From contig CALHLC010000050.1 of the NCBI GenBank assembly GCA_938034385.1, positions 1-44,858 of the forward strand: 44,858 nt of DNA, read 5' to 3'. The position numbers and the translations under genes were made by a program. The stretch is from an uncultured Bacteriovoracaceae bacterium. Lineage in GTDB: Bacteria > Bdellovibrionota > Bacteriovoracia > Bacteriovoracales > Bacteriovoracaceae. Below, piece by piece: positions 4,501-19,979 of this stretch. Below the pieces are notes generated by a model. The model was not told the DNA's origin and ran no database searches. It worked only from the letters and a program-made list of their open reading frames with translations. Numbering within the stretch: position 1 is the first letter of the stretch; each line of letters opens with the position of its first letter.

Positions 4501-7500
4501 TGAATAATGTTCATTAAACTTGCAAGAGTCTTTAATTACAGGTTTATAATCTAATCCCTTAATGACATCATGAAGATCTTCATCGTAATTGACTGCTTTA
4601 GGATCAATACATCCAGAAAACTTACACGTTTTATCATCTACTTCTGCTTCCGGATTAAAGTTTGTGGCACTCTTTTCAGTACAACCTTTCAAACCTGTAC
4701 ATTTATTTCTCACAATTTTACCAGAAAAACTTAAACCTAATTGTTTTAAGATGGCCTTGTATTTAGCAATTACATTATCAAAATCAGGATCAAAGCTATC
4801 ATATCTTTGATCAGTACATCCTACTAAATGACAACTACCATTTTCCTGAGCTCCTGGAACGTCGTTCTCTGCTGGTTCATAAGCACAAGCTAACTTCTCT
4901 CCACATTCTCCTGGTAATAATGTTCCATGTCCATAAGCTTTCCATGCATCTCTAATTTTCTTATCTACATCATAGTTTGCAAATCCTGGATTATTACAAG
5001 CTGTAAACTTACATTCAAAGTTAGGATCAGCTTGTGCTGTTGGATCAAAATTATCCGCTAGTTTTTCCATACATCCAATCTTATCTCCACACTGAAACTC
5101 TTTAGAGAGGTCACCCGTAGGAGCAATGTTTCCAAGAAGATTTATGTAGTCATCAACTTTCGCCTTACAGTCTTTATCAAAACCAGTAAATCCTTCCTTC
5201 GCACAACACTTAATATCACATGATCCATTTTCTTTTTTAATTCCATCATAATTATCTGCTTTCTTATAATTACAACCTAACTCTTTACCACATTTATATT
5301 TGTCATTGATTGTTCCAGTTGGACTCACTCCTAGTTGAGCAAGGATCGCAGTATATCCACTTACCGTGTTTTTACACTCAGGATCAAAGTTTTCAAACCC
5401 TTCTTTAGAACAACATTTAATGGTACAAGATCCATTTTCTTTAAAGTCCGGGTTAGAATTTTCAGCTTTGTCATAAGCACAACCTAATTGCTTACCACAT
5501 TCATGATTTTTATTAATTGCTCCTGTAAGAGGAATTTTCAATCCATTAAGTAAAGTCATATATCCATCTGCCACAGACTCACAATTGTTTTTAAAGTTTT
5601 CAAACTTATTATCTGCACAACAATTAACTATACAACTTCCATTTTCTTTTGTTCCTGGAACATGGTTTTCTGTATAGTCTGAATCATAATTACAATCTAA
5701 CTTCTTACCGCAATTAAAATTGCTATCTAATGTTCCTGATGATGTTAACCCAGCATCAGTTAATATTTTCTTATAATCATCAATTCTTTTTGAACATGCA
5801 GGATCAAAGTTTTCTGAGCCAGCATCAGCACAACACCCGATATTACAACTTCCATTTTCTACTGTTTCTTTTTCAAAGTTTGACGCCTGATCAAAAGCAC
5901 ATCCTAACTTCTCACCACATCCAACTTCTAATGAAGCCGTACCAGTATATGTTATTCCTAAAGTTGCAAGACTCGCTTTATATCCATCCAGTACTGCTTT
6001 ACATTCTTTATCAAAACCTTGCATTCCAGCAACTGAACAACATTCAAAGTCACAACTTCCATTTTCAACACCACCTGTTTTAAAATTTGTAACCCTACTA
6101 TCCATAAATGAACATTGTTCAGGCTTACAATGAGAACTTAGAATATTTACAGATCCTGTAAATGCTACTCCTATTCCCTGTATCATTGCTTGATATTCAG
6201 TCACTTTGTCTAAACAAGCTTGATCTGTCTCTCCAGAAAAACCTTCTTCACATTTTTTACACGTAAACTGACAACTTCCATCATCGAGAGTTGCTCCTGG
6301 TGTAGTGTTCGTAGCCTGAGCTGAAGTACATCCTTTCTTCTTTCCACATTGATAACTTGTATTAATTGAACCTGAAAGAGTTACTCCTAAACTAGATAGT
6401 AATGAGTTATATCCATCAACTTTAACCTTACAATTCGGGTCATAGTTTTCAAAACCAGACTGAGCACAACATTGAATGATACAACTTCCATTTTCTTTAC
6501 TTCCAGCTTCTGTATTAATTGCTCCAGCATATGAACATCCTAATTTCTTACCAGGACAATACATTGAATTTACTTCACCTTGGGCAGCAATATTTAATCC
6601 TGCTAAAATCCCTTTATACTCATTAAATTTCTTCAAACAATTAGGGTCATATGAATCATTACTTTGATCTGAACAACATAAAATTGTACAAGTACCATTT
6701 TCTTTTGTTGCTGCAGGATCAGTATTAGAAGCACCTGGGTAAGTACATCCAACTTTCCCACCACAATTAAAATTATTCGATAAATTTCCAGTAGGAGCAA
6801 TTCCCATTCCAGCTAAAATACCTTTATATGTATCTATTGTTCCCTGACAACTTGGATCATAGTTTTCCATACCTTGAATAGAACAACATTGAACATTACA
6901 AGTTCCATTCTCTTTAGAACCTGGGATATCATTATTAGCTGGTTCATAAGCACAATCTAACTTTCTTCCACAATTTAAATTATCAACAACATTTCCGCTA
7001 AGAGTTAATCCTAGGCCTTGAAGAATTGCAGTATACTCATCAATTGATTTTTTACAATTTGGATCATAATTTTCAAATCCTGCTTGTCCACAACAAGCAA
7101 TATTACATGTTCCATCTTCTTTCTTGTTCGGCGAGTAGTTTGAAACATATCCATTTTGAAAGCTACAACCATTTACTGGATAGTTACAATTAAACTTATC
7201 TGAGAATGTTCCTTTAAATGAAACATTCATTTGAACTAAAGCATTTAAATATGTTGAATACGTTTTCTTACAATTTGGATCATAGTTTGTGGCATTCTCA
7301 TCTCCACAACACCTAATATTACAACTTCCATCTTCAGCACAAGCAGTACATCCATCACCGTTACTAGAATTTGTTACATAACCAGGAGCTTTAAAATAAC
7401 ATCCAAACTTGTTTCCACAATTTGCGGCATTATTTAGATTCCCTGATTGAGTTGTCCCTGTAATATTTAATAAATTTTTATATGAATCAATAGTTGACTG

Positions 7501-8388
7501 ACATCTAGAGTTATAAAGTTCGTGACCTTCAAGTCCACAACAAGCAATATTACAACTACCATCTTCTATATTAGCACTTGGATTTGTATTACTCGCTCCA
7601 GCGAATGTACAACCAGTTGCTCCATAAGAATCACATGTTTTAATGACTTTTCCTGTAAATGATTTTCCGTTAAGAGAAGCAATATAGTTTCGAACTTCAT
7701 CAGCAAAAGCCTGACTAAAGTTCGATGCTCCGTTTACATCACAACCTCTAAAAATACATGATCCATTTTCTTCAGTTGCAGAAGCATCATAGTTTGTAAC
7801 ATTTGGACTATTATATTTACATCCTCCCATTGGAGTCTTACAAAGACTTTGATTATTTAAAACCTCTCCACCATAGTTTGATGTATATTCAGTAAAGTAC
7901 TTAAATTGTCCTGAATGAAACTCTTTATAGTTAGGGTCTGTACAAACCTCAAATCGACATGGCCCTGGAACGTCACATGCTGCACCGATAAAATCTATCG
8001 CGTCAGGATGACAACAACCTTTTCCATATTCTTTTTTCGTTTTACAAAGATCAGGTTTATCAACAACCTTTCCTCCATGTAAATCTACATAAGCTTGATA
8101 TTCTTGATGCTTTGAAAATTCTACATAATCACTATCAGCACAAGCATAAAACAAACACTCACCATATTCAGAAGTAAAAACTCCTGTATAATTCTGTCCC
8201 TCACTATGTCTACAAGTATGTCCATAAGGATCAGCCTTATCTATCATTGTGGTTGTTGTTACTTGAACACCTGTTGCTCCAGAGACAGTGTCACTACTTG
8301 ATGGTGCATTATCAAATAAATGTGCATTGTCATTGTTACAAGATACTAATTGAATAATTATCATTAAAGATAAAGCCAAACTACGCAT
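1591..8388 (-). CDS. Giant Cys-rich tandem-repeat lipoprotein with c-type heme site and dockerin-like pair (2265 aa)
   Basis: A lipoprotein signal ends in LVSC (Cys17). From about residue 50 to 1290 run some 16-18 imperfect repeats of 65-75 residues. They have the pattern GCxYxxAxN...ENGSCxIxCC...FENYDPxCK...YxxIL..LG...G...CGKKLGC, related to the A-x-NY-x-P-x-A-x-DDGSC units seen in surface proteins of Bacteroidetes and other groups. After the repeats come a roughly 500-residue domain with one CAGCH heme-c motif (1692-1696, in the context NTCAGCHSG) and two DxNxDxxxxxxxD calcium loops at about 1792 and 1825, spaced like a dockerin pair. The last 430 residues are Cys-, Thr- and Pro-rich with RWQPTPTP units. 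GAGGAA precedes the ATG. Role is unknown; an outer-surface adhesin or prey/matrix contact protein is an inference. Sole heme and many disulfides imply periplasmic or surface maturation. Confidence 0.8.
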   Translation of the reverse strand: MRSLALSLMIIIQLVSCNNDNAHLFDNAPSSSDTVSGATGVQVTTTTMIDKADPYGHTCRHSEGQNYTGVFTSEYGECLFYACADSDYVEFSKHQEYQAYVDLHGGKVVDKPDLCKTKKEYGKGCCHPDAIDFIGAACDVPGPCRFEVCTDPNYKEFHSGQFKYFTEYTSNYGGEVLNNQSLCKTPMGGCKYNSPNVTNYDASATEENGSCIFRGCDVNGASNFSQAFADEVRNYIASLNGKSFTGKVIKTCDSYGATGCTFAGASNTNPSANIEDGSCNIACCGLEGHELYNSRCQSTIDSYKNLLNITGTTQSGNLNNAANCGNKFGCYFKAPGYVTNSSNGDGCTACAEDGSCNIRCCGDENATNYDPNCKKTYSTYLNALVQMNVSFKGTFSDKFNCNYPVNGCSFQNGYVSNYSPNKKEDGTCNIACCGQAGFENYDPNCKKSIDEYTAILQGLGLTLSGNVVDNLNCGRKLDCAYEPANNDIPGSKENGTCNVQCCSIQGMENYDPSCQGTIDTYKGILAGMGIAPTGNLSNNFNCGGKVGCTYPGASNTDPAATKENGTCTILCCSDQSNDSYDPNCLKKFNEYKGILAGLNIAAQGEVNSMYCPGKKLGCSYAGAINTEAGSKENGSCIIQCCAQSGFENYDPNCKVKVDGYNSLLSSLGVTLSGSINTSYQCGKKKGCTSAQATNTTPGATLDDGSCQFTCKKCEEGFSGETDQACLDKVTEYQAMIQGIGVAFTGSVNILSSHCKPEQCSFMDSRVTNFKTGGVENGSCDFECCSVAGMQGFDKECKAVLDGYKASLATLGITYTGTASLEVGCGEKLGCAFDQASNFEKETVENGSCNIGCCADAGSENFDPACSKRIDDYKKILTDAGLTSSGTLDSNFNCGKKLDCNYDSDYTENHVPGTKENGSCIVNCCADNKFENFKNNCESVADGYMTLLNGLKIPLTGAINKNHECGKQLGCAYDKAENSNPDFKENGSCTIKCCSKEGFENFDPECKNTVSGYTAILAQLGVSPTGTINDKYKCGKELGCNYKKADNYDGIKKENGSCDIKCCAKEGFTGFDKDCKAKVDDYINLLGNIAPTGDLSKEFQCGDKIGCMEKLADNFDPTAQADPNFECKFTACNNPGFANYDVDKKIRDAWKAYGHGTLLPGECGEKLACAYEPAENDVPGAQENGSCHLVGCTDQRYDSFDPDFDNVIAKYKAILKQLGLSFSGKIVRNKCTGLKGCTEKSATNFNPEAEVDDKTCKFSGCIDPKAVNYDEDLHDVIKGLDYKPVIKDSCKFNEHYSCLCDAKGTATKYRIGDQLKSLVITNKGILNSLADGYKGFTLNFGRLLGALAPNPTCQQKVFQSYVDGYNFEKLADKEVLPRKNVRDLIDRHWQRDAATGDYFIDGAPYELIAIVFRPDLEKQDDEEKIVSYGEGRFVFKLKDVEETVKVPCNTTVTTNTCTGSRYGCRKTTKVVEKTCDKKVVTKEPSHVIFEYDLPGELDWHYNWAKLKCLKGDAYKDHLVNIIKSFAFTDHKYKECTSRNVTDTYGHTTTVKECNRMRKPLSQVRVNDLRELDFNSNTSWALFEMRPLEASCNGLERVEMPLTPIDNGGEHRDIRAEEQIFKQVHQNDLANDFVSQFNKIADPFEGYTVNKLAWQNTYFLDHSWARELEGHQATKNLSEPERSFALYRYSLNTCAGCHSGAFVQHNSRDPNGLDLTSNQMVSKYGKLRFRDIKTANDFLHIHADGSLSPFMKEDLGYRAEDLEMSLTDNFCADPGSFSDMEDSVDPGVFNCEIDLNFDNVLDEKDVAIYRQLASSYAAKKQCITIPDLNGDGLINKTDHSWYANLIGDNGLKHAANYAPKCRNLETKCGNKFVCPKGHKAKLVKGTKDKYICESIVVIDPAPTCKSWQRLVSVGGKFICSDISCGFGKKRLANGQCVSTQTCPTGYKASGTRCCKQTINRVSKRVCKPTKVCTRTYRGRCLSSTTKNVCSTVFVNQPVTSCVAPGSNPAPTTPTVPVCGSGKSWNRIINRCVSTVTPTPTPVTQPKVCTGTFNLKVGSKCCRRVTKTTPTRTCKTVKGQCTKTRYGTMSCTGSKQVCTTTNKAVSTLDCGGGSISTSTPTPTPRWQPTPTPRWQPTPTPKAPSSYCKHGFVYNKSIHSFKCKSAPVVKPPTSTSSCKTTKFANGQGLFCANQNPSWRNVVCNDGRRPSNPNDCSTRPPTSTSSCKWESRTFGGNAGSGLRNSCTKQWKSVRCNNGKRAPSSTKAICI
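1979..2042 (-). repeat. 24-bp minisatellite encoding RWQPTPTP
   Basis: Two full copies of a 24-base unit (GGAGTAGGYGTTGGCTGCCA plus TCTT on the plus strand) and a partial third lie in the C-terminal Pro/Thr segment of the giant lipoprotein. Copies differ at one base. The unit is in frame (8 codons), so changes in copy number would lengthen or shorten a Pro/Thr linker without breaking the gene. Confidence 0.75.
4500..8200 (-). repeat. Tandem array of about 16-18 Cys-rich units, about 210 bp period
   Basis: The array lies inside the giant lipoprotein gene. Each unit carries ENGSC or EDGSC followed by a CC pair, a YDPxC-like segment, a hydrophobic helix, and a closing CGKKxGC. Units near the middle are most alike, and the first and last three are more diverged. 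The repeated bases are similar but not identical, indicating old duplication with continuing divergence. Limits are approximate. Confidence 0.75.
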
Positions 8389-9210: not shown

Positions 9211-10164
9211 TTACATATTAATGTTTAACTTATTTAAAGTATCATAAGTTAAAGCACCAACAGAAAGACCATTTGTTCTTTGGAATTTCTTAATTGCTCT
9301 AGCAGTATCTGAACCTAAGATACCATCAATTTTACCTGGATTATAACCAGCACCTTTAAGAGCTTTTTGAACTTCTACTACAGTATTTGTATTAGAATTC
9401 GTCTTACAAAGAATTCTAGCCCATACAGTTGAAGATGGAGCTTCAAGAACTCTCTTAGTAATCTCTTTATACTTAGCTGGAATAGTAGAAGGAACTTTTT
9501 GAGCTGGCTCTAAAAGTTTCTTAACTTTAACAATCTTAGTTTTAGCTGGGATCATTTTCTTTTCAACTCTTGAAGGAGTATCAACAACTTTCTTTCTTAC
9601 TGTTTTATAAACAGCTGGAATTTCAATTTCTTTAACTCCTGCTTCAACGTCCATTACAGTCTCTTCAACAGTCTTGTAAACAGCTGGCTTTTTTACTAAA
9701 CATAAAACACCATCAGTGTTTGAATGATCAAGAGCTCCTGCCTCACCTTTTTTCCATGCAGTTGATTCAGGCTTAACCATAATTTTCTTAGTAACAGTTT
9801 TATACTTAGGAGCAGTTTTTACTAATTTAGTACCTGCTTCTTTAACTAGCATTTTTTCTTCAACCCACTTATAAGTTGCAGGGATTACTTTAAGAACTTC
9901 TCTTTCTTCTTCAACAGTAACTGTTTCATTAACAAAACCATACTTTGGAGCAACAGTTTTATAAGTAGTAGTTTCTGGTCTAGTCATAACTTTTTCAGTT
10001 GTAGTTTGATATTTTGCTGGAGTAATAACTTTTGCAAAACATTGACCAGGTTGAGCGTTTGCAGGAATATCATTCCCACTTAAATTAGCAGTAGTAACAG
10101 CTGTTTCGTCTTGATTAGCGAGTAATCCAAACGAAAAAAGTAAAGTAATTAAAAGAACTTTCAT
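9211..10164 (-). CDS. Secreted repeat protein with C-terminal peptidoglycan-binding domain
   Basis: The 317-residue product has a signal peptide (1-16, cut near LLA-N). Residues about 48-245 contain repeated segments built on PAxYKTV followed by charged strands: PAKYQT, APKYGF, PATYKW, APKYKT, PAVYKT twice, PAKTKI, PAKYKE. Residues about 262-315 are a PG_binding_1 domain (VQKALKGAGYNPG-KIDGILGSDT, then AIKKFQ), which binds cell-wall glycan and peptide. Two Cys at the edges of the repeat domain may be bridged. AAAGGAG precedes the ATG and a strong terminator follows, so it is probably monocistronic. It is likely a cell-wall-anchored periplasmic scaffold; the function of the repeats is unknown. 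Confidence 0.75.
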   Translation of the reverse strand: MKVLLITLLFSFGLLANQDETAVTTANLSGNDIPANAQPGQCFAKVITPAKYQTTTEKVMTRPETTTYKTVAPKYGFVNETVTVEEEREVLKVIPATYKWVEEKMLVKEAGTKLVKTAPKYKTVTKKIMVKPESTAWKKGEAGALDHSNTDGVLCLVKKPAVYKTVEETVMDVEAGVKEIEIPAVYKTVRKKVVDTPSRVEKKMIPAKTKIVKVKKLLEPAQKVPSTIPAKYKEITKRVLEAPSSTVWARILCKTNSNTNTVVEVQKALKGAGYNPGKIDGILGSDTARAIKKFQRTNGLSVGALTYDTLNKLNINM

Positions 10165-10294: not shown

Positions 10295-11692
10295 TTAATC
10301 AAGAGAGTTTCTAATTTCTTCCAGCTCGCTGGAGATGAGCTTCTCAGAGATTTCAGGAACGATTTTCCACACTTCTTGAACCAGCTCATCTGCACAAAAG
10401 TTTTTCACAATTGTGGGTAACTCTTGTCTTATTTTTTGCAAGACTTCTTTGCGAATCTCTATTTCTAGATCTTCCCTCAAGTCCTTACTTAACTTTTCAA
10501 TGATCTGGGCCTTAACATCCTCTTTTAACTCAGCTTGGAATTCCTGCTTTATCTCTTCTTTTAAACCAATTAAATCGACTTTAGCTTGATTCTTAACTTC
10601 TTGTGCCTCTTGAGAATTCAATCCTGCAAGAGAAATTGTTGTCTTTGTATTTTCATCCCAAAGGTCATCTTCCAACTCACCTAGGATTTCTTCTTTTAAC
10701 TTAGAAAGTTTTTCTTCATCAGCTTTAAGATCTAATTTCTCTAAATGAATTTTTTCTGAAGTCTGATCCAAGTTCAATGTACCTATCGGCACCAAGGAAG
10801 GAGTCTTGTCATCTACAAGCCGATCAGGCAGTTTTCCTGGATATTCCAAATCATCGTTAGAAGGCAATTTTGTATGAACAGTTTCTTCACTTTCTGATAC
10901 GGGAGGTAACTCTTGAGGCAATGCAGGTTCTGCAATCATCTCTGGAACTTGTACTTCATCTTCAATAAGCGGTGGTAAATCAGGTGCAACTACATCCGGC
11001 ATTGTCTCATCCATTCCACTTAAAGGCGGCAGCTCAGGGACCAAGTCAGAAATTTCCTCTAAAGGAGGAGGAAGATCAACTAAACTCTGATCAATAATCT
11101 CAGGAAGTTCATTTTCTAAACTTGCAGAATCAAAACCGGGATTAATACTTTTATTTTTTTCATCCAACATAGGAGGCAAGTCCATTCCCCAATCTTGTTC
11201 ACTTGTTCGCTCATCAACTGGAAAATTTTCTTGTGCATCCAATGAACTAACTATTTCGTTCATAGGGTCATTGTCTTCGAGACCTTCCGTCCCAGCTAAA
11301 CTCTTATCTATCAAATTATTAGAAGTTAAGCTTTGCAGAATTGCTTTATCATAAATATTTAAAAACTTTTCAGCATCAAAAGGCTTAAAAATATAATCTT
11401 CAATTTTATTAGCCTCAATTTTATTTTCATCAACGGCATCAAAGGTTCCAAATAGAATGATTACCTTAACATCGTTTTTATTTTTTAAAATGTTTGCAAG
11501 GTCATAGCCATCTTTATTATCACTTAAACTAAAATCAAGAAAAACAATATCAGCTTTTTTCTCTTCTAATTTTTCAAAGAGTTCAGCTTCGGATGAACAA
11601 GCTTGAATTTCACACTCTCTTTCGTCTAGAATAATTTCAACAACTTTCTGAATATTTTTACTATCATCAGCAATGATAACTTTATGAGTCAT
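10295..11692 (-). CDS. RomR-like response regulator (receiver domain, Pro-rich linker, Glu-rich helical tail)
   Basis: Residues 1-120 form a receiver domain with the acidic pair D9/D10, phosphoacceptor D53 (IVFLDFS), T83 and K103-P104, so it should accept a phosphoryl group. Residues about 125-300 are acidic and Pro-rich with repeated [DE]LPP motifs. Residues about 320-465 are long charged helices ending in VWKIVPEISEKLI, a motif I associate with the C-termini of deltaproteobacterial response regulators. REC plus Pro-rich linker plus Glu-rich tail is the architecture of RomR, the pole-marking protein of Myxococcus that is tied to MglA and to predation in Bdellovibrio. RomR identity is inferred from architecture. 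A TATACT box lies six bases from the ATG, yet the gene also closes the FHA operon (39 bases after the PP2C gene). Confidence 0.7.
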   Translation of the reverse strand: MTHKVIIADDSKNIQKVVEIILDERECEIQACSSEAELFEKLEEKKADIVFLDFSLSDNKDGYDLANILKNKNDVKVIILFGTFDAVDENKIEANKIEDYIFKPFDAEKFLNIYDKAILQSLTSNNLIDKSLAGTEGLEDNDPMNEIVSSLDAQENFPVDERTSEQDWGMDLPPMLDEKNKSINPGFDSASLENELPEIIDQSLVDLPPPLEEISDLVPELPPLSGMDETMPDVVAPDLPPLIEDEVQVPEMIAEPALPQELPPVSESEETVHTKLPSNDDLEYPGKLPDRLVDDKTPSLVPIGTLNLDQTSEKIHLEKLDLKADEEKLSKLKEEILGELEDDLWDENTKTTISLAGLNSQEAQEVKNQAKVDLIGLKEEIKQEFQAELKEDVKAQIIEKLSKDLREDLEIEIRKEVLQKIRQELPTIVKNFCADELVQEVWKIVPEISEKLISSELEEIRNSLD

Positions 11693-11698
11693 ACTAAA

Positions 11699-11704
11699 AG
11701 TATA
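11699..11704 (-). promoter_or_regulatory. -10-like TATACT directly before the RomR-like start
   Basis: TATACT, then TTTAGT, then ATG on the minus strand. Transcription would start at or next to the ATG, giving a leaderless message. No Shine-Dalgarno is present. No clear -35 was found. Confidence 0.4.
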
Positions 11705-11731
11705 TTAAGCTATTTGGGTACTTGTAAATTT

Positions 11732-12460
11732 CTAATATTCTAAAATAATAACTGACTGATTATCTTGGTTACCCTTAGTGTTATTAAGATCTAATACTTC
11801 TTCCAAGTGTTCTTGAGTAAGCTCTTTTTTACTTAACCAATTCAAAATCTCAGAATCACTTAAATGAGAAAATGCTCCATCCGTTCCCATAATGAATCTA
11901 TCGCCCTTATGTATTTCAAACTCTTTTACAAAGTATAACAAGTCAAAATTCATTCCTACAGGTGACATAGGTATATAACTCATTTGATCATCTTGGCGTA
12001 TCGAGTTTAAGCATAGATCATTTTTATAGACTGAGTGAATAACATTATTTCTAATTAAGTATGTAAAGCCTGATCCCACTGAAACAATATTTAGCTTACT
12101 TCCTGCCTGGCTAGCAAACTGTCCAGTTACTGCGGCCCTTGCGAAGTTATCCTTAGAGAGGTTTTCTTTAAAAAGATCTTTGTGAGAAAAGTGTAAACAG
12201 TTAATTAAAGAATTTAGTTCTAAGTTATAAAGATTATTAAAATAAAAAGGCATTGTAGCTTCAGGGTCTTTAGAAAACTTGAGGTAGTGATCCTTTATAC
12301 TCATCGCCGTTTTTTCTACAGCAATATCTCCAATACCAGATCCGCCCATTCCATCTAGCACTAAAAACAACAAGTGCTTCAAGTCATACAAACAAAGGTC
12401 TTCATTTACATGAAGAACAGGACCCTTCCTGGAAACTGTTATGTACTTTCTTAAATCCAT
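11732..12460 (-). CDS. PP2C-family serine/threonine protein phosphatase
   Basis: The 242-residue product carries the metal-binding motifs of PP2C phosphatases in order: NED (19-21), LDGMGG (35-40), GTDGAFSHLSD near 200, and QDNQSV near the C-terminus. These place the acidic residues for the binuclear Mn/Mg centre, so it should be catalytically competent. It is soluble, with no signal or membrane span. PP2C enzymes in such clusters remove phosphate from Thr residues read by FHA domains. Here three FHA proteins are encoded immediately upstream, and the ATG follows the last FHA gene's stop by two bases, implying translational coupling. No Ser/Thr kinase is in the window; the matching kinase must be elsewhere. 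Confidence 0.85.
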   Translation of the reverse strand: MDLRKYITVSRKGPVLHVNEDLCLYDLKHLLFLVLDGMGGSGIGDIAVEKTAMSIKDHYLKFSKDPEATMPFYFNNLYNLELNSLINCLHFSHKDLFKENLSKDNFARAAVTGQFASQAGSKLNIVSVGSGFTYLIRNNVIHSVYKNDLCLNSIRQDDQMSYIPMSPVGMNFDLLYFVKEFEIHKGDRFIMGTDGAFSHLSDSEILNWLSKKELTQEHLEEVLDLNNTKGNQDNQSVIILEY

Positions 12461-12462
12461 GA

Positions 12463-14625
12463 TTATTCAATATTATAAAATTTTATAAGTCTCTCTTTTG
12501 CTTTAGAGTAATAATAACTCCCTATCGGTGCAATTTGTAAAACTTCTTCAAATTTCTCTTTTGCATCTCTGTGTAAACTAATTGACTCAGAAATTAACCC
12601 TTCACGATAGACATTCATGGCCTTTGATTTAATTAAAATTTTTATTGAGTTCGATTCATTGATCGCTTCTACATTTGTTGGGTTCACTTTTAGCACTTCT
12701 TGGTATGACTCAAATGCATTCTTAAAGTCTTCTCCGTTTTTAAAAGCTCTTGCTTTGGATAAGTAGCTCTCTTCTTGACCAGTCATTTTCTCAAAGATCT
12801 CTTTTCTTAGCTCTTCACCTTTTAAAGTTAAAACCTCGTCAACATTAGCAATAGATCTATATTCATCCGTTTTTTTATAAGCTTTATATAATTCATTTTG
12901 TTCAAGGAAGTTATCAGTCTCTTTAAGTTTCAATAAAAACTTTTCCTTTGCTAAACGTTTTGTTTCTTTTTTCTGCTTTTCACTTTCAATAGCATTTTTT
13001 ATTAACTCTACTTCTTTCTTGATACTAACAACTTCAATGTTTTCAGGATCTATTTCATAAACCTTAGAGAGATAAGTTTCAACCAATTCGAGGTTTCGAG
13101 ATTTCAGAGCACTTTGAGCTTTTTCAATATGTACTGCAACTTTTTTACTTCTCTCAAGTCTCTCTTCTGTTTCTATTCTTTTCTTTTCAAGCTCTTCAAG
13201 ATTCTCTAGCCCTTCTTGAGAAGCTAGAACTAATTGTTGAGTTTGTTTAAAGTCTTTATCTATAGATTGCACTAAATCTAGTTCATAAAGAGACTGTGCA
13301 TAATCACCTTCTTCAAAAGCCGTTTTTGCCAGATGATAATGATCATTTAAATACTCAATTTCATCCTCAGTGAAAGTCGTTTCAAGTTCTAGAGGTTCTT
13401 CTTTGTTAATATTAGCAACCTCTCTATCTGCACTTTCTAAAACTGTCTCCGTTTTTACAACTGCTTGGCTAGCTGGTCCTTCACTTTCATCATCTAGGAC
13501 AACCCATGCTAATCCAAAAACAACAACAGTATAAATTAAATACTTTCTTTTTTGCTCACTATTACTGCCGCCATTTTTTGAAAAAAGTTTTCCAAAAAGA
13601 CTCTTACTCTTTTTTTCTGCATTTTCGCCTTCTTCAGAAAAAACAGCAACATCATCGTAACCACCCAGAGTCTCCTCTTGATAATCTATTTCTTGATCAT
13701 TGATAGGCATTAATCTTTTCAATTCATCTTCAACAAACTTACTTTCAAGATTTAGAACAAAGCTTACATTTCCTATTAAAATTTCATCACCTTTTACAAG
13801 GTTGGCCTTATTAACCTTATCACCGTTTAGATATATCCCATTTTGAGATTTCATATCTTCGATAACGATGTTCTTTCCTTTTACTTCAATCTTTGCGTGT
13901 ACTGATGAAATCTCATCATCTTCTAAAACAATATGACACTTCTTTTTACTACGCCCTATATAAATAATGTTCTTATCTATAGCATATTTTTGATTGGCAA
14001 TATCAGGACCGGAAATAATCAAAGAGTAATTTAAGAAATCTGTAATCACTGCTGTATTATCTGAGTCATAAGAATCTTCGCTTACAACTTCAACTAGATC
14101 ATTATCTAATTCATTAAAGCTATTTGAATCAAATGAATCGTCCATATCTGAAAAAGTTAACTCATCAGAGTCTTGATCTAATCCAAGCTCCTCTGATCCT
14201 TCTGACAATTTAATATCATCTGAATTTGAACCTAAGATTTCTGTTTCTTGATTTAATAAAATTGCTTCATCTTGTTGGGGGGCATCTTGCTTAATCGTTT
14301 GCTCCAACTCAACACTATGTGAAGAGACAGCTTGAGCAAATCCAGAAACTCTTATTACATAATCAAAAAACGTTAATACATCATTTTCAGAAATAATTGC
14401 TTGAGTAACATTAGAACCATTTACTTTTACATTACCTGATCCCGAAACATCCTTTAAAGATAAAATATCATTAGAATAAGAAAGAAGTATATGCTCTCGA
14501 GAAACTCTATGATCCTCAAGCGTTAGATCACATATGGCAGATCGACCTACCAATACTTCGAACTCAGAAACATCTTTTTCTAAGCTTCGTAATTCAATGT
14601 CAGTTTTGTAGACAACGAATTTCAC
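12463..14625 (-). CDS. Membrane protein with two FHA domains and periplasmic TPR-like repeats
   Basis: FHA domain 1 spans residues 1-96 (VGRS, HRVSREH, SGSGNVKVNG). An acidic Asp/Ser/Glu-rich linker runs 100-195. FHA domain 2 spans 199-294 (IGRSKKKC, EISSVHA, SQNGIYLNG). A single membrane span lies at about 361-377 after a basic Ser/Lys stretch. The rest (about 415-715) is helical with TPR-like units (AFEEGDYAQSL, ALKSRNLELVE, AFKNGEDFKNAF) and coiled coil, probably in the periplasm. FHA domains bind phosphothreonine peptides. The start is GTG at 14625, inside the preceding FHA gene (26-base overlap), with AGGGG upstream. It looks like a transmembrane scaffold relaying cytosolic phospho-signals to an envelope complex; that role is inferred. 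Confidence 0.8.
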   Translation of the reverse strand: MKFVVYKTDIELRSLEKDVSEFEVLVGRSAICDLTLEDHRVSREHILLSYSNDILSLKDVSGSGNVKVNGSNVTQAIISENDVLTFFDYVIRVSGFAQAVSSHSVELEQTIKQDAPQQDEAILLNQETEILGSNSDDIKLSEGSEELGLDQDSDELTFSDMDDSFDSNSFNELDNDLVEVVSEDSYDSDNTAVITDFLNYSLIISGPDIANQKYAIDKNIIYIGRSKKKCHIVLEDDEISSVHAKIEVKGKNIVIEDMKSQNGIYLNGDKVNKANLVKGDEILIGNVSFVLNLESKFVEDELKRLMPINDQEIDYQEETLGGYDDVAVFSEEGENAEKKSKSLFGKLFSKNGGSNSEQKRKYLIYTVVVFGLAWVVLDDESEGPASQAVVKTETVLESADREVANINKEEPLELETTFTEDEIEYLNDHYHLAKTAFEEGDYAQSLYELDLVQSIDKDFKQTQQLVLASQEGLENLEELEKKRIETEERLERSKKVAVHIEKAQSALKSRNLELVETYLSKVYEIDPENIEVVSIKKEVELIKNAIESEKQKKETKRLAKEKFLLKLKETDNFLEQNELYKAYKKTDEYRSIANVDEVLTLKGEELRKEIFEKMTGQEESYLSKARAFKNGEDFKNAFESYQEVLKVNPTNVEAINESNSIKILIKSKAMNVYREGLISESISLHRDAKEKFEEVLQIAPIGSYYYSKAKERLIKFYNIE

Positions 14626-15568
14626 CTAATTCATACCCCTGTTCTTTTTCTATTTTTTTTATATTCTTCATTGCTTGGATATATCTCACATTTTTAGGAT
14701 ATTCCTGCAACAACCTAATTATAGCACAATACGATACTAATGCCCTTTCTGCATTTATTGTAGCCAAATTTCTTTGAGCTTCAATATTATATTTGGTCAC
14801 TAGACTCTCTATACCCTCATAAGCTTTTTTCTTATAAAACCTTGCCTGACTATCTGAAGGGTTTTCATCTAAAGCGGCATTAAACTCACTTAAGGCCCTA
14901 AAATAATTACCTTCACGTAACTCTCGTCTTCCTTGTTGTATAAGAGAAAGAACTTTTGAATCTATTTTCTTGTTCTGAGACTTTGTCTCAATATTAATTT
15001 TTTTAGCCAAGCTTTCTTGATTGCTGACTTTTCGTGTAATCTTCTTTCTTGTCTTAACGACCTTCGCTTCTTCAGTTCCTTCTTCTGAAATAATTAAAAA
15101 ACCTACAATTAAAATTAAGACCCCTGAAACCAAAGGTATTATTGATTTTTTCTTAACGTTAGACTTTATAGAAGTAAGCCCCTTGCTTAGGGAATCCTCA
15201 AAAGAATGAAAGCCAGTTGTTCCATATTCAATATCAATTCTAAAAATAGTATGACCAATAATTAAACGATCATGTTTTTTTAATTTTTCTTGAATAACTT
15301 TTCTATCATTTACTATAATACCATTTTGAGACTTTAAGTCAGTAACCATAAGCTCACCATTTAACCAGACAAGCTCAGCGTGATTTCTCGATGTTTTCGA
15401 ATCATTTAGAGGAATATCACTTTTTGGATCTCGGCCTACAACTTTCCTTTGACCGTCTTTAATTGTAAATGACTGACCTCGTCTTACTCCTGTTAGAAAA
15501 GTTAGCCTAAAAAAATGCTTCGTATTTTCAATCCCAGGTGAATGTATGTTTTGTAAACCTCTATTCAT
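14600..15568 (-). CDS. FHA-domain membrane protein with TPR-like C-terminus
   Basis: The 322-residue product has an FHA domain at about 20-113 (VVGRDPKSD, SKTSRNHAEL, LKSQNGIIVND), a membrane span at 143-160 (IIPLVSGVLILIVGFLII), and a helical region with TPR-like units at about 206-300 (REGNYFRALSEFNAALDENP). The layout is a one-FHA version of the next gene's product, so the two probably arose by duplication and may form a heteromeric complex. It starts two bases after the preceding FHA-sensor gene and overlaps the following one by 26 bases. Binding of phosphothreonine is expected because the conserved Arg, Ser and Asn of the FHA loops are present. Confidence 0.8.
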   Translation of the reverse strand: MNRGLQNIHSPGIENTKHFFRLTFLTGVRRGQSFTIKDGQRKVVGRDPKSDIPLNDSKTSRNHAELVWLNGELMVTDLKSQNGIIVNDRKVIQEKLKKHDRLIIGHTIFRIDIEYGTTGFHSFEDSLSKGLTSIKSNVKKKSIIPLVSGVLILIVGFLIISEEGTEEAKVVKTRKKITRKVSNQESLAKKINIETKSQNKKIDSKVLSLIQQGRRELREGNYFRALSEFNAALDENPSDSQARFYKKKAYEGIESLVTKYNIEAQRNLATINAERALVSYCAIIRLLQEYPKNVRYIQAMKNIKKIEKEQGYELGEIRCLQN

Positions 15569-15570
15569 TA

Positions 15571-17094
15571 TTATGCCTGTTTAAATCCAATTATATGGGC
15601 CTTGGCATAACCGTCCTTACCCATCAAAGAACTCACAGTAATAGTATACTCTGTCCCACTAATATCACCTATTTCTTCACAATTCGCTCCCATTTCATCA
15701 CTTGATTGATCACATAGAGATATAATCTTGGCAACTAAAGACTGATCACGAATTATATCAGAGAGGTCTTGATCCAAAGATAAATTTTCTCTAATTCCAA
15801 TCAAGTCTTCAGCTTCCTGGTTTATTCTTTTTATCTGTTTTTCAGCATTTAATACCATCCCTGCTCCAGGATAACCTGCAACTATTTCACTGAGACTTGC
15901 AATATAATCATCATCACTTTCTAAGGAATCAAATGAAACTTCGTCCCCATTTTTCAATTCGTTTAACTGATTAATGGACTGGTTTAGAATTGCTTCTAAA
16001 GGCAACATATCCTCAAATAACATTTTCTTTTCTATTCGATTCTTATTTCCTTGTAGAACTTCATTCGCCTCTTTAATTAAAACATCAAGATGTTTTTGTG
16101 TTAAAAAGTAAATCAAGAGGTAACAAAGAAACCCAATTATAGCTGACTTCAAAAGAGCCTCTAAATAAGACACACTACTTAAGTTTTCTAACTCGATTAA
16201 ACTCTCTGGATTAAAAACAATTGAAATAACACCAACAACTTGATCTCGTTGACTTTCTAGGTTTCTTGCAAAAATTCCTTTTGCAACACCAATTCTACCC
16301 TCTCCTAAGTTTTCAACATAATGATAATTGTAATCGTTTTTGCTTTCTATCATCTGCTTAGCTTCTACTGTAAAGGGATGATTCACATAAACATTTTTCC
16401 TCTCAGTAGATTTTATAACTATGCCTTTTCTATCAAGAAGATAGTATTCAACAACACTCTTTTCTCTTTCTAAAAAATTTAGATTAATTTGATCAAACTC
16501 GTTTTGATATAAGTATGCTGAATTTCTTCGTGAGACTTCTTCTGCATGCTGTTTAACTCTGTTGATAACCTCAGAAAGAACTAATCCTTCTGTTCTATCC
16601 AATACAGATGAGACCGAAATAAAAACAACTAAAGCAATAGTCGCTGCAAGAAAGATGCTTATAAGATTCTTCCATTCTGAACCTTGGTTCATTGAAAAGA
16701 TCATAGGCATGAATTTGTTTTTAAAATAAAAACTCACCTTCCCAAATAAGGATTTCGGAACTTCTTCTTTTTCTTCAACATAAGTTTGTTTTTTAATTTT
16801 CTTTACTTGGACCTTTATTAGTTTAAATGAAGCTCCAGGAATAGAGATTACATCTCCCTCTCGTAAAGATTTTTCTTGAATAATCTTATTATTAACAAAA
16901 GTACCATTGGAACTACCTAAGTCCTTCATACTTATGAATTCTTCATTCACTAGTAATGAAAAATGCTTCTTTGATATTCCTTTAGAAGTAATTTGATGAT
17001 CTGCTCCCATATCACTACCAAAAATATTTTCTCCATCGTCCAAGGAAAATTTTTTGCCTCTCACATCTCCGGCGACCCCGACTAATCTAAACAT
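15571..17094 (-). CDS. FHA-domain transmembrane sensor with periplasmic domain and PAS-like tail
   Basis: ATG at 17094 is chosen because GGAGG lies six bases upstream; an in-frame start farther up would lie inside the DUF192 gene without a binding site. The 507 residues comprise an FHA domain (1-97; FGSDM, SKGISKKHF, LGSSNGTFVN), membrane span 1 (143-165), a periplasmic domain of about 145 residues (166-312) resembling a CACHE/double-PAS sensor, span 2 (313-332), a short helical linker, and a PAS-like cytosolic domain (about 400-507). No histidine kinase, cyclase or phosphatase output follows. The FHA Arg position is Ser in FGSDM, so phosphothreonine binding may be weakened. It probably converts an external cue into an interaction change in this FHA cluster. 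Confidence 0.75.
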   Translation of the reverse strand: MFRLVGVAGDVRGKKFSLDDGENIFGSDMGADHQITSKGISKKHFSLLVNEEFISMKDLGSSNGTFVNNKIIQEKSLREGDVISIPGASFKLIKVQVKKIKKQTYVEEKEEVPKSLFGKVSFYFKNKFMPMIFSMNQGSEWKNLISIFLAATIALVVFISVSSVLDRTEGLVLSEVINRVKQHAEEVSRRNSAYLYQNEFDQINLNFLEREKSVVEYYLLDRKGIVIKSTERKNVYVNHPFTVEAKQMIESKNDYNYHYVENLGEGRIGVAKGIFARNLESQRDQVVGVISIVFNPESLIELENLSSVSYLEALLKSAIIGFLCYLLIYFLTQKHLDVLIKEANEVLQGNKNRIEKKMLFEDMLPLEAILNQSINQLNELKNGDEVSFDSLESDDDYIASLSEIVAGYPGAGMVLNAEKQIKRINQEAEDLIGIRENLSLDQDLSDIIRDQSLVAKIISLCDQSSDEMGANCEEIGDISGTEYTITVSSLMGKDGYAKAHIIGFKQA

Positions 17095-17431
17095 CAGAAA
17101 CCTCCAAGATGGTTCCGACTTCAATCTCATATTTCCTTAAAGTTCCGCAAGGTAATTCTAGTGCTGCTTTCGCTTTTAGTTGGTACCCACTAATTCTCCA
17201 AGGCTTCATCCCTTCTATGACCTTTATAACTTTCTTATCTTTATCCCAAAAAACAATATCAATAGGCTCGCACATAAATGAAGTATGTAAGCTTCCAGGC
17301 TTCGAAAAAATCAAACCATGCTTAATGTTTTTTTGAAACATTAAGCCTTTTAAACGTTCAAAAAACGAGATCGCCCAATAAATTGGGAGTTCAATTTTTT
17401 GATTATTCGCTATTACTCTCATCTCTTTCAT
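17087..17431 (-). CDS. DUF192 family protein
   Basis: The 114-residue product matches the DUF192 (COG1430) fold: F-xER-xxGLM near residues 24-32, a conserved LHTSFMCEPIDIVFWD stretch, then a hydrophobic strand and a final LPCGTL segment. Most homologues are exported or lipidated, but this one lacks a signal peptide. The biochemical function of DUF192 is unknown. The gene starts with ATG in an ATGA overlap with the TadC-like gene and its 3' end overlaps the FHA-sensor start by eight bases, so it is a fixed member of this operon. DUF192 genes next to secretion-platform genes are worth noting; here the link is by position only. Confidence 0.75.
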   Translation of the reverse strand: MKEMRVIANNQKIELPIYWAISFFERLKGLMFQKNIKHGLIFSKPGSLHTSFMCEPIDIVFWDKDKKVIKVIEGMKPWRISGYQLKAKAALELPCGTLRKYEIEVGTILEVSDV

Positions 17432-18858
17432 CTTGTTAAATACTGTAAAGCCATCGGAGCAAAAATTACGATTACAACAGATGGCAAAATAAATACAAAT
17501 GTTGGCATTAATAATTTAGTTGCTGCAGTTGCTCCTTGCTTTTCAATCAATGCAGATCGCTTATTCCTAATTTCTCCTGATAAGTTTTTCAAGATTGGAC
17601 CAATCGAAGCTCCTACTGAGTCCGCAGCAATCAAGGTTGCACAAAAAGAAGTTACTTCCAGAGTATTTACCCTCCAAGAAAACTTCTTTAAAGCTTGAGC
17701 TCTTGTTGCTCCTAATTGAATTTCTTTAATTAACATTTCCAACTCATCAAGAAGAGCTGATTTAGGTGCTTTCTTTAACACTTTATTCATAGCTGCAATA
17801 AAGTCTAATCCTGCCTCTACTGATAAAGCCAACATATCAACCACAAAGGGTAACTGCATGATGATCTCTTTTTTCCGAGCTTCGGCACGTGATTTGATCC
17901 AAATATCAGGATAAATATATCCCAAGGCAGCCATCACTGGAACTAAGTACATCGGAAGTCCTGGATTTAAAAACTCTCTTAAAAATAAGTAGATCACAGG
18001 AAAAGTAATAATTGAAAATAGTTTAAAAGAATAGAAATCAACAGGCGTAATGAATTTCGAAATCCCAGCAGTAAAGAGTATTCTCTTGAACTTCTCTTGG
18101 ATTTTTCTTTTCCCTTTCATCCCATTAACAACTGGATTCATGTACCTTCTGAAAAATGGCGTTGAATATTTTAAAATCATTCCATCTTTAGTTGTAATGG
18201 TCTCTGTCTTTTGCTCATCAAGAGCCTCGGATGTCTTAAATTCGTTTTCGTCATCAAAAATAGATTTAGCAATACTAAAGGCTGCAAAACCTATTAATAA
18301 GATTGAGGCAATATATAAAATCAGATTCTTATTTGCGATTCCTTCAGAGATATTTCCGGCCTTCCAGATCTTGCCAGATTTAGTTTCCAGGTAGCATTCT
18401 GACTCATTGGATTTCTCATCAAAGCTTCCATCTGCTTGAAGCTTTCCTTTATAATTTAATAAACTAATCTCACTTTTTATGCCTAGACTATCTAAGTTTA
18501 CAGTTCTCTTGTCCCAAACTCCTAGGTAGTTACCAATATTTAAAGATGTACTTCTTGAGAATTCTTGTTTTTCAAAAGTTTTGAAATCAAAATGAAGCGA
18601 ACATTTATAAGCATCACTACTAGAGTCATGAAAATATAATTTTCCAAGCTTTCCTTCACTAGTCTTATAAAAATATACATCTCCATTCTTTACTGACTTT
18701 GTTGGAATGATCATTGAATTTAAATTTGATTCATTTGATTTTAAACAGTCCTTTTGAATATGGCCGAATACTTTTTCACCACAGATAGAGTCTGAATACA
18801 GATCATGACAAAAGAATATTGCCGTCAGCAATAAAAAGAGTTTACAGTTAAATTTCAC
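17428..18858 (-). CDS. TadC-like type II secretion F-domain protein with an added periplasmic domain
   Basis: A signal peptide (1-22) leads into a periplasmic domain of about 150 residues with Cys26, 38, 86 and 155. A membrane span at 177-197, spans near 277-292 and 300-317, the T2SSF/GspF domain (about 335-440, LPFVVDMLALSVEAGLDF) and a last span at 445-468 follow. The C-terminal 300 residues match TadC, the inner-membrane platform of Tad/type IVc pili. The N-terminal periplasmic domain is not part of usual TadC (about 300 residues). The start is GTG at 18858, supported by the signal peptide directly after it. TATACT lies six bases upstream. It leads the FHA/PP2C/RomR-like operon; no ATPase (TadA) or TadB gene is in the window. 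Confidence 0.75.
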   Translation of the reverse strand: MKFNCKLFLLLTAIFFCHDLYSDSICGEKVFGHIQKDCLKSNESNLNSMIIPTKSVKNGDVYFYKTSEGKLGKLYFHDSSSDAYKCSLHFDFKTFEKQEFSRSTSLNIGNYLGVWDKRTVNLDSLGIKSEISLLNYKGKLQADGSFDEKSNESECYLETKSGKIWKAGNISEGIANKNLILYIASILLIGFAAFSIAKSIFDDENEFKTSEALDEQKTETITTKDGMILKYSTPFFRRYMNPVVNGMKGKRKIQEKFKRILFTAGISKFITPVDFYSFKLFSIITFPVIYLFLREFLNPGLPMYLVPVMAALGYIYPDIWIKSRAEARKKEIIMQLPFVVDMLALSVEAGLDFIAAMNKVLKKAPKSALLDELEMLIKEIQLGATRAQALKKFSWRVNTLEVTSFCATLIAADSVGASIGPILKNLSGEIRNKRSALIEKQGATAATKLLMPTFVFILPSVVIVIFAPMALQYLTR

Positions 18859-18905: not shown

Positions 18906-19979
18906 TCAACCTCTACCCTGATTAATTTTGTCTATTAAATTTTGCCTATACTTAGAATGCTCAGAAAAAGGGAATAACCGAGCAACTTCTTCAGGGTTTA
19001 ACTTATTAAAAACAGGTATAAACTTCTTTTTACAATTTATTACTCTTTGTTCTTTTTTCTTAAAGGCACCATCCTCAAAAGTTCCATTTCCATAAACCGA
19101 CCTTAATACTTCTAAAGACTCTAAAGTTTTTTCTAGAGATCTATATTCAAGGATATCAGTCCCAGCTTGAAAAGACATGATAGTTGCATCTTCTATTGAG
19201 AAGTTATCTTTTATAGCTCCCATTTCCATATCATCGCTTATGATAATTTTTTCATATCTTAGTACATTTCTCACATAGTCATGTGCTTTTTTACTGAAAG
19301 TTACAGGATACTTCTCGTCAAAGCACTGTGCGATTACGTGTGACATCATTAAAAATTCTAACTTAGATCTCACTGCTTTTTTAAACGGAATAAATTCATT
19401 TGCCTCTAGATCTTTTAAGCTTTTTTTAACTATCGCAAACTCTACATGAGTATCTTCTAGTGTATCTCCATGCCCTGGAAAATGTTTAGCACATGACAGA
19501 ACATTCTCTACTTTTTGTCCTCTGATGGCTCCGACTAATAATTTTTCAACAATCTCAGCTTGTCTTGAAAAAGCTCTATCTCCTATTACATCATTTTTCG
19601 GATTAGAAAACACATCACAAACGGGAGATAAGTTTAGATTAATCCCACATAAACTTAACTCTTTTGCCATCAACTGATGTAACTCAAAAACTGTTTTAGG
19701 TGAATCCAACTCTCCAACATCCAGCATGGGAGGAATTATGGTAAAGGGTTCTTTAAACCTTTGAACTCGCCCACCTTCTTGATCAACACAAACAAAAAGA
19801 GGGAAACTACTTTTACAACTCTGTATATCATTTACTAGTTCACAAAGTTGTTTAACATTTTCAAAATTTCTACTAAAGAGTAAAACTCCACCGATTTCAT
19901 TATCTCGGATTTCATTTCGTTCAAAATCTCTTAAAGATGTTCCTTCAATTCCCGTGATGAAAAATTGTCCTAAATTCAT
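18906..19979 (-). CDS. nagZ: Beta-N-acetylhexosaminidase NagZ (GH3)
   Basis: The 357-residue product is a single-domain family 3 glycoside hydrolase. Visible are VDQEGGRVQR (66-74), the catalytic loop KHFPGHGDTLEDTH (165-178; Asp176-His178 acid/base dyad) and ISDDMEMGAI (247-256; nucleophile Asp249). NagZ removes GlcNAc from 1,6-anhydro-MurNAc peptides during cell-wall recycling; it is cytosolic, and there is no signal peptide here. The gene follows a lipoprotein gene and mreB in the same direction, which fits a cell-wall growth cluster. In a predatory bacterium it could also help use prey wall fragments (inference). The binding site before the ATG is weak. Confidence 0.9.
   Translation of the reverse strand: MNLGQFFITGIEGTSLRDFERNEIRDNEIGGVLLFSRNFENVKQLCELVNDIQSCKSSFPLFVCVDQEGGRVQRFKEPFTIIPPMLDVGELDSPKTVFELHQLMAKELSLCGINLNLSPVCDVFSNPKNDVIGDRAFSRQAEIVEKLLVGAIRGQKVENVLSCAKHFPGHGDTLEDTHVEFAIVKKSLKDLEANEFIPFKKAVRSKLEFLMMSHVIAQCFDEKYPVTFSKKAHDYVRNVLRYEKIIISDDMEMGAIKDNFSIEDATIMSFQAGTDILEYRSLEKTLESLEVLRSVYGNGTFEDGAFKKKEQRVINCKKKFIPVFNKLNPEEVARLFPFSEHSKYRQNLIDKINQGRG

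Follow-up and report, generated by a model that had tools for sequence, protein, structure and literature searches.

The window analysed here, a stretch of 44,858 nucleotides from an uncultured Bacteriovoracaceae bacterium, carries one half of the only Tad system of its genome, split off from the remaining Tad genes. Seven ORFs on the minus strand, running from 18858 to 10295, encode in this order TadC, a DUF192 protein, three FHA proteins (FHA3, FHA2 and FHA1), a PP2C-type phosphatase and a receiver protein, in agreement with the initial annotation. We read this block as the half of the single Tad (type IVb/c) pilus that provides signalling and the platform, gated by phosphothreonine and with RomR tying the machine to the cell pole, and assign this reading a probability of roughly 60%.

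Features of the seven-gene block and its surroundings in the window
Feature	Position	Strand	Basis
TadC, inner-membrane platform protein, 476 aa	17428..18858	-	Pfam T2SSF E 7e-12, domain at 341-466
DUF192 protein, 114 aa	17087..17431	-	Pfam DUF192 E 2e-14
FHA3, FHA-TM-periplasmic Cache/PAS-like-TM-cytoplasmic PAS	15571..17094 (start corrected to Met13 of 17130 ORF)	-	Pfam FHA; AlphaFold model
FHA2, FHA-TM-short TPR-like periplasmic part	14600..15568	-	Pfam FHA E 1.6e-15, TPR weak
FHA1, FHA-FHA-TM-periplasmic TPR; putative Bd0474 counterpart	12463..14625	-	Pfam FHA (two domains), TPR
PP2C-type phosphatase, catalytic Asp set complete	11732..12460	-	NCBIfam Stp1_PP2C_phos E 3e-19
Most likely RomR orthologue, receiver, acidic/Pro-rich linker and RomR-C helix region	10295..11692	-	Pfam Response_reg; RomR-C profiles; tree; synteny
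Receiver, inside the RomR orthologue	~11357-11680	-	
RomR-C helix region, inside the RomR orthologue	~10298-10456	-	
GH3/NagZ-type glycosidase, upstream neighbour (context only)	18906..19979	-	Pfam Glyco_hydro_3; adjacent in most family loci
Peptidoglycan-binding protein, downstream neighbour in the window genus (context only)	9211..10164	-	
Strong terminator-like hairpin after the peptidoglycan-binding gene (context)	9185-9162		

The genes of the block are tightly packed. From TadC to the receiver gene, the intergenic gaps are -4, -44, 2, -26, 2 and 39 bases, and placing the FHA3 start at Met13, a residue nearly invariant among relatives, turns the overlap of -44 into one of -8. Pfam profiles detected T2SSF (in TadC), DUF192, four FHA domains, TPR and Response_reg in the window ORFs. 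The DUF192 gene is a conserved member of the run as well. TadC carries a lineage-specific N-terminal extension of approximately 175 aa, which starts with a signal-like helix. This extension differs between genera and its predicted model is not confident; it was treated as variable because relatives carry other extensions or none. A strict sigma-28 (FliA) promoter pattern gave no match in the window or in the Tad locus on contig C38, and sigma-70-like sites occurred at chance frequency.

To examine conservation across the Bdellovibrionota, 40 loci were read and then re-annotated with profiles. TadC homologues were identified in 138 of 143 genomes and in 100/100 complete related genomes. The order TadC-DUF192-FHA3-FHA2-FHA1 is retained at every complete locus, with the exceptions of L061, where TadC is masked by an antisense ORF, and L076, whose FHA proteins have diverged too far to be distinguished. 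Throughout the phylum, the DUF192 gene separates TadC from FHA3 (uncalled in two loci), and a PP2C-like gene comes next after FHA1 in most loci, being unrecognised in L075, L076, L080 and L081. Since the block order is kept in the fully readable loci of the phylum, apart from these listed exceptions, the arrangement is not due to chance. The profile-annotated loci bear out that TadC, the FHA proteins and the phosphatase form a conserved unit. The proposed seven-gene order holds in part: the first six genes are found together phylum-wide, whereas all seven occur together only in Bacteriovoracaceae, with RomR located elsewhere outside this family. No published account of the phylum-wide order was found in the literature consulted, and a literature search combining Tad, FHA, PP2C and TadC returned nothing.

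The receiver protein is most likely a true RomR orthologue and the only RomR-C protein of the genome, an assignment that is strong but not absolute. RomR is the marker of the attacking cell pole. A RomR-C profile built from the C-terminal 55 residues of the receiver protein gave a single match per genome in eight family genomes, in every case the block-linked receiver. In other families, it matched a receiver protein elsewhere in 11 of 12 genomes, with one genome giving an extra marginal match; one RomR-C protein per genome was found in 18/20. This region is Glu-rich, with a Trp in nearly all and a Pro in all 20, and fits the published definition of RomR-C, which names Glu richness, an invariant Trp and an invariant Pro (PMC3441718). 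In genome G142, the RomR-type protein has D11, E12, D55 and K107, the same numbering as published for B. bacteriovorus RomR (PMC6428892). A reciprocal profile built from 11 non-family RomR proteins placed all 25 family receivers at the top among 1359 ORFs (E 1e-12 to 0.03, next 0.09), with a weak match to the window receiver (E 7e-4). In a receiver tree, which contained no Myxococcus RomR, family receivers and RomR form one clade without intruders against 28 other receivers (modest bootstrap of 72). Genomic context is also shared. In 11/11 genomes of other families, nadC and birA are immediate neighbours of RomR or only a few genes away from it, and in 17/20 fetched family loci the receiver gene has a birA homologue next to it. 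Based on the agreement of the two-way profiles, the tree and the nadC/birA synteny, the receiver is assigned as a RomR orthologue, so the RomR build and relationship first suggested for it have stood up. An MglA-like GTPase gene follows recR (L159:1943-2530), a position reported for Bacteriovorax (PMC3983030).

The RomR gene follows the block in 21/21 genomes of Bacteriovoracaceae, a family of predatory bacteria (20 fetched genomes and the window), and in none of the 11 genomes of other families (0/11). It was also found behind the block in L165, L166 and L170, which possibly overlap with the 21. From the synteny and this distribution, we take birA to be the probable ancestral neighbour of RomR, and we regard linkage to the block as a state probably derived in Bacteriovoracaceae. 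The gap between the PP2C gene and romR is 30-110 bp in the family and wider than the gaps inside the block, and romR may therefore have its own promoter. The conserved adjacency is weak evidence of function, since birA and nagZ have been conserved as neighbours as well and the romR gap is wider. RomR could thus be a mere conserved neighbour, brought there by one rearrangement on the family stem and kept without functional coupling, and the absence of the adjacency outside Bacteriovoracaceae fits this explanation. It is harder to reconcile with the persistence of the same strand and a short gap in every genome over many genera. The B. bacteriovorus RomR proxisome also includes type IV filament components (PMC11025332), which likewise speaks against a mere neighbour. 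We give this alternative somewhat less than an even chance. A more far-reaching proposal is that in Bacteriovoracaceae RomR is wired directly into the Tad pilus: it would be co-expressed with TadC and the phosphothreonine readers and would recruit them to the invasive pole. A single operon would then combine the identity of the pole, the sensing of prey contact through an FHA-linked WalK-like receptor and the switching of the pilus by threonine phosphorylation. This proposal is tentative and, on balance, doubtful. No published account of a RomR linkage to the Tad/FHA block was found in the literature consulted.

The match of the window phosphatase to Stp1_PP2C_phos is below the cut-off of that model; the protein shows the PP2C motifs NED, DGMGG, TDG and DN, with the metal-binding/catalytic residues D21, D36, D194 and D233. 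The catalytic residues are kept in 19-21 of the 21 Bacteriovoracaceae members and replaced in the Bdellovibrio group, where the protein therefore looks like a pseudo-enzyme. As the block persists there with a phosphatase that looks dead, enzymatic resetting is not universal. Neither the PP2C nature nor the decay of the last gene of the block was found described in the literature consulted.

No Ser/Thr kinase was found inside the cluster. The search for a partner kinase yielded exactly one in the window genome, on contig C21 and away from the block. A Ser/Thr kinase is present in 100/100 complete genomes; in G093 and G100, both approximately 88% complete, no kinase was detected and FHA genes are present. 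The C21 kinase shares 45% identity over 334 aa with a Bdellovibrio-type kinase of genome G142. From its map position, the latter is probably Bd3148, which has been discussed as a candidate predation kinase (PMC6733907).

The three FHA proteins had been described as phosphothreonine readers with periplasmic TPR parts. This description suits FHA1 and FHA2, the latter with a TPR-like part, and does not suit FHA3, which has a Cache/PAS-like periplasmic domain and a cytoplasmic PAS domain. FHA1 is homologous over its whole length to L072:10057-12081 (E 5e-26). The AlphaFold model of FHA3 has a mean pLDDT of 81, and its FHA domain matches OdhI with a Z of 18.6. The periplasmic domain matches WalK/CitA sensor domains with Z of 14-14.8, and residues 135-519 align to the WalK model 9a5d in a TM-Cache-TM-PAS layout with a poor overall rmsd. 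The predicted layout is therefore like that of a sensor kinase without its kinase part and with an FHA domain as the N-terminus. Judged from this model, FHA3 resembles a WalK-like receptor lacking the kinase domain, an architecture of which no published account was found in the literature consulted.

The phosphothreonine-binding residues of the FHA proteins are largely kept. The contacting Arg, Ser and Asn are present in 36/38, 37/38 and 35/38 proteins for the second FHA domain of FHA1, in 39/39, 39/39 and 38/39 for FHA2, and in 35/38, 38/38 and 38/38 for FHA3. The Arg-less FHA3 proteins are three, all from the window genus. This conservation bears on a rival explanation, in which the FHA proteins are a structural ring or scaffold of the Tad platform, similar to YscD/PscD of type III secretion and independent of phosphorylation, with the PP2C as a structural remnant. 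The Pfam family Yop-YscD_cpl indeed overlaps all FHA proteins, fold matches to the cytoplasmic domains of YscD/PscD were obtained, and the Bdellovibrio PP2C is retained as a pseudo-enzyme. A purely structural role accords poorly with the phylum-wide retention of these contact residues in 35-39 of 38-39 proteins and with the catalytic set kept by the Bacteriovoracaceae PP2C, and we regard it as unlikely.

The window genome consists of 2.67 Mb in 66 contigs. Genome-wide, T2SSF matches comprise two pairs, each within one ORF (on C12 and C30), a TadB-like protein on C38 and the window TadC, which is the only TadC of the genome. The paired matches are taken as the platforms of the type IVa pilus and of type II secretion. 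The C38 set contains two pseudopilins, CpaB, a secretin, a TadZ-TadA fusion and TadB, and lacks TadC; the window therefore supplies the missing platform protein. TadB (L007:10440-11333) has no second copy in the genome. The TadA-type ATPase (L007:11339-13450) matches TIGR03819 with E 2.6e-92 and 309.6 bits against a curated cut-off of 373, and has a MinD/TadZ-like N-terminus fused on. CpaB matches TIGR03177 over the cut-off (E 4e-42), the secretin is CpaC-like, and the two pseudopilins in L007 are TadE/F-like. TadA and TadB, looked for elsewhere in the genome, are hence both encoded on C38. TadZA was found in 100/100 complete genomes. In L065, L066, L068, L069, L077, L174 and L176, the pseudopilin, CpaB, CpaC and TadZ-TadA genes lie within a few genes after the block (L174 and L176 are from a second collection, and CpaB is uncalled in L176). 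Since the block adjoins Tad genes in several families, it was placed in the Tad system. In the window genome, the block is separated from the remaining Tad genes, as might be the case for a new secretion or polarity machine that is independent of the Tad pilus. This very improbable explanation was rejected because the sole TadC resides in the block, the C38 set has none, and block and Tad genes are contiguous in several families.

The block is consequently not the new system that the initial annotation had proposed: it makes up one half of the Tad pilus locus of this very genome, and its counterpart Bd0470-Bd0475 is an already known predation operon (PMC6561027, PMC12034629). This correspondence is inferred by us from the content and order of the genes, the sizes of the proteins and the map position. 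The Bdellovibrio-type loci L071/L072 have the same six genes in the same order, with Bd0474 showing the FHA-FHA-TM-TPR architecture. They differ in that the last gene encodes a PP2C-like protein lacking the catalytic residues and RomR (Bd2761) is encoded at another site, whereas in the window the PP2C is intact and RomR follows. In B. bacteriovorus, mutants of Bd0470 (TadC) show no attachment, killing or rounding of prey, and those of Bd0474 still attach to prey without killing it (PMC6561027). The TPR protein Bd0075 is a binding partner of Bd0474, and Bd0470-Bd0475 have been listed as a single operon (PMC12034629). Predation depends on type IVb pilins (PMC5430801).

Other known systems share parts of this organisation. 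The prey-killing Kil system of M. xanthus is also an FHA-rich Tad-type machine in two loci of a predatory bacterium, and FHA signalling of this Tad-like machine was already suggested by its authors (PMC8460266). KilF, however, has an N-terminal FHA domain, whereas the TadA of the window genome is a TadZ/MinD-like fusion without FHA match and the FHA domains are on separate membrane proteins. The RomR proteins of M. xanthus and B. bacteriovorus likewise consist of REC, a disordered linker and a Glu-rich C-terminal region in which a Trp is nearly invariant and a Pro invariant, with MglA present (PMC3441718); the window gene differs in lying behind the Tad/FHA/PP2C block and not beside nadC-birA. 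The PpkA-PppA-Fha1 threonine phosphorylation pathway of T6SS also has an FHA reader and a PP2C controlling a contact-dependent envelope machine (PMC5995506, PMC3953482). By comparison, the window cluster has no kinase, its FHA domains belong to membrane proteins that have periplasmic TPR/Cache parts, and the machine is a pilus.

In the proposed mechanism, TadC is the second platform protein and partner of the C38 TadB, which is encoded with TadZ-TadA, CpaC and CpaB. FHA1-3 would sit in the inner membrane, with the cytoplasmic FHA domains reading phosphothreonine and the periplasmic TPR/Cache parts touching or sensing the envelope side of the machine. Upon prey contact, a Ser/Thr kinase from elsewhere would phosphorylate threonines of the platform or a partner, FHA binding would assemble the pilus or switch it on, and the PP2C would reset the switch. 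In Bacteriovoracaceae, RomR would position the machine at the invasive pole or license it there. We infer the phosphorylation gating, the identity of the kinase, co-transcription of the genes and a physical contact of RomR. Several observations count against this mechanism, namely the absence of the kinase from the operon, the phosphatase of the Bdellovibrio group that looks catalytically dead, the window-genus FHA3 without the phosphate-binding Arg and the comparatively wide gap before romR.

For the switching on of the pilus at prey contact and at one pole only, this reading would provide named candidates, namely the kinase, the readers, the phosphatase, the receptor and the pole marker. It also sets up an evolutionary contrast between Bacteriovoracaceae, with an intact phosphatase and a linked RomR, and Bdellovibrio, with a non-catalytic phosphatase and an unlinked RomR. 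On this comparison, the 'hypothetical' Bd0475 would be a degenerate PP2C and Bd0472 a kinase-less sensor, and these assignments make the attach-but-not-kill phenotype of Bd0474 mutants testable. With romR directly behind the block in Bacteriovoracaceae, a link between cell polarity and the Tad pilus also becomes testable.

Outside the Bacteriovoracaceae, nadC and birA are linked to romR in all 11 Bdellovibrionota genomes examined (romR loci L104-L114). Within this family, the N-terminal extensions of TadC vary from genus to genus (window and loci L166, L168 and L169). In some other Bacteriovoracaceae genera the extension is repeat-like, possibly Sel1-like, and many have no extension at all. 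The 2265-aa protein carries a lipoprotein-like signal and numerous copies of a Cys-rich repeat unit. Homologues of the TadZ/MinD-TadA fusion were found repeatedly across Bdellovibrionota, and the second Arf/Ras-like GTPase of the window's genus was also identified in two further genomes of this genus (G002 and G003).

Features in the window and in other contigs (C38, C47) of the same genome (G000)
Feature	Location	Remarks
TadC N-terminal extension	window 17428-18858, residues 1-175	beta-rich, low-confidence region
2265-aa protein	window 1591-8388	downstream of the TadC-PP2C block, same strand
TadZ/MinD-like domain and TadA ATPase, one fused protein	L007 (C38 Tad locus) 11339-13450	
RHS/YD-repeat-like protein	L007 8744-10417	directly behind TadB
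Second Arf/Ras-like small GTPase	L163 (G000:C47) 3593-4090	in addition to MglA

In Bdellovibrio-type families, the catalytic Asp residues of the block PP2C are gone while the gene is still retained (L070-L073, L078 and L079). The terminal block gene of these families (Bd0475 in B. bacteriovorus) probably encodes a pseudophosphatase.
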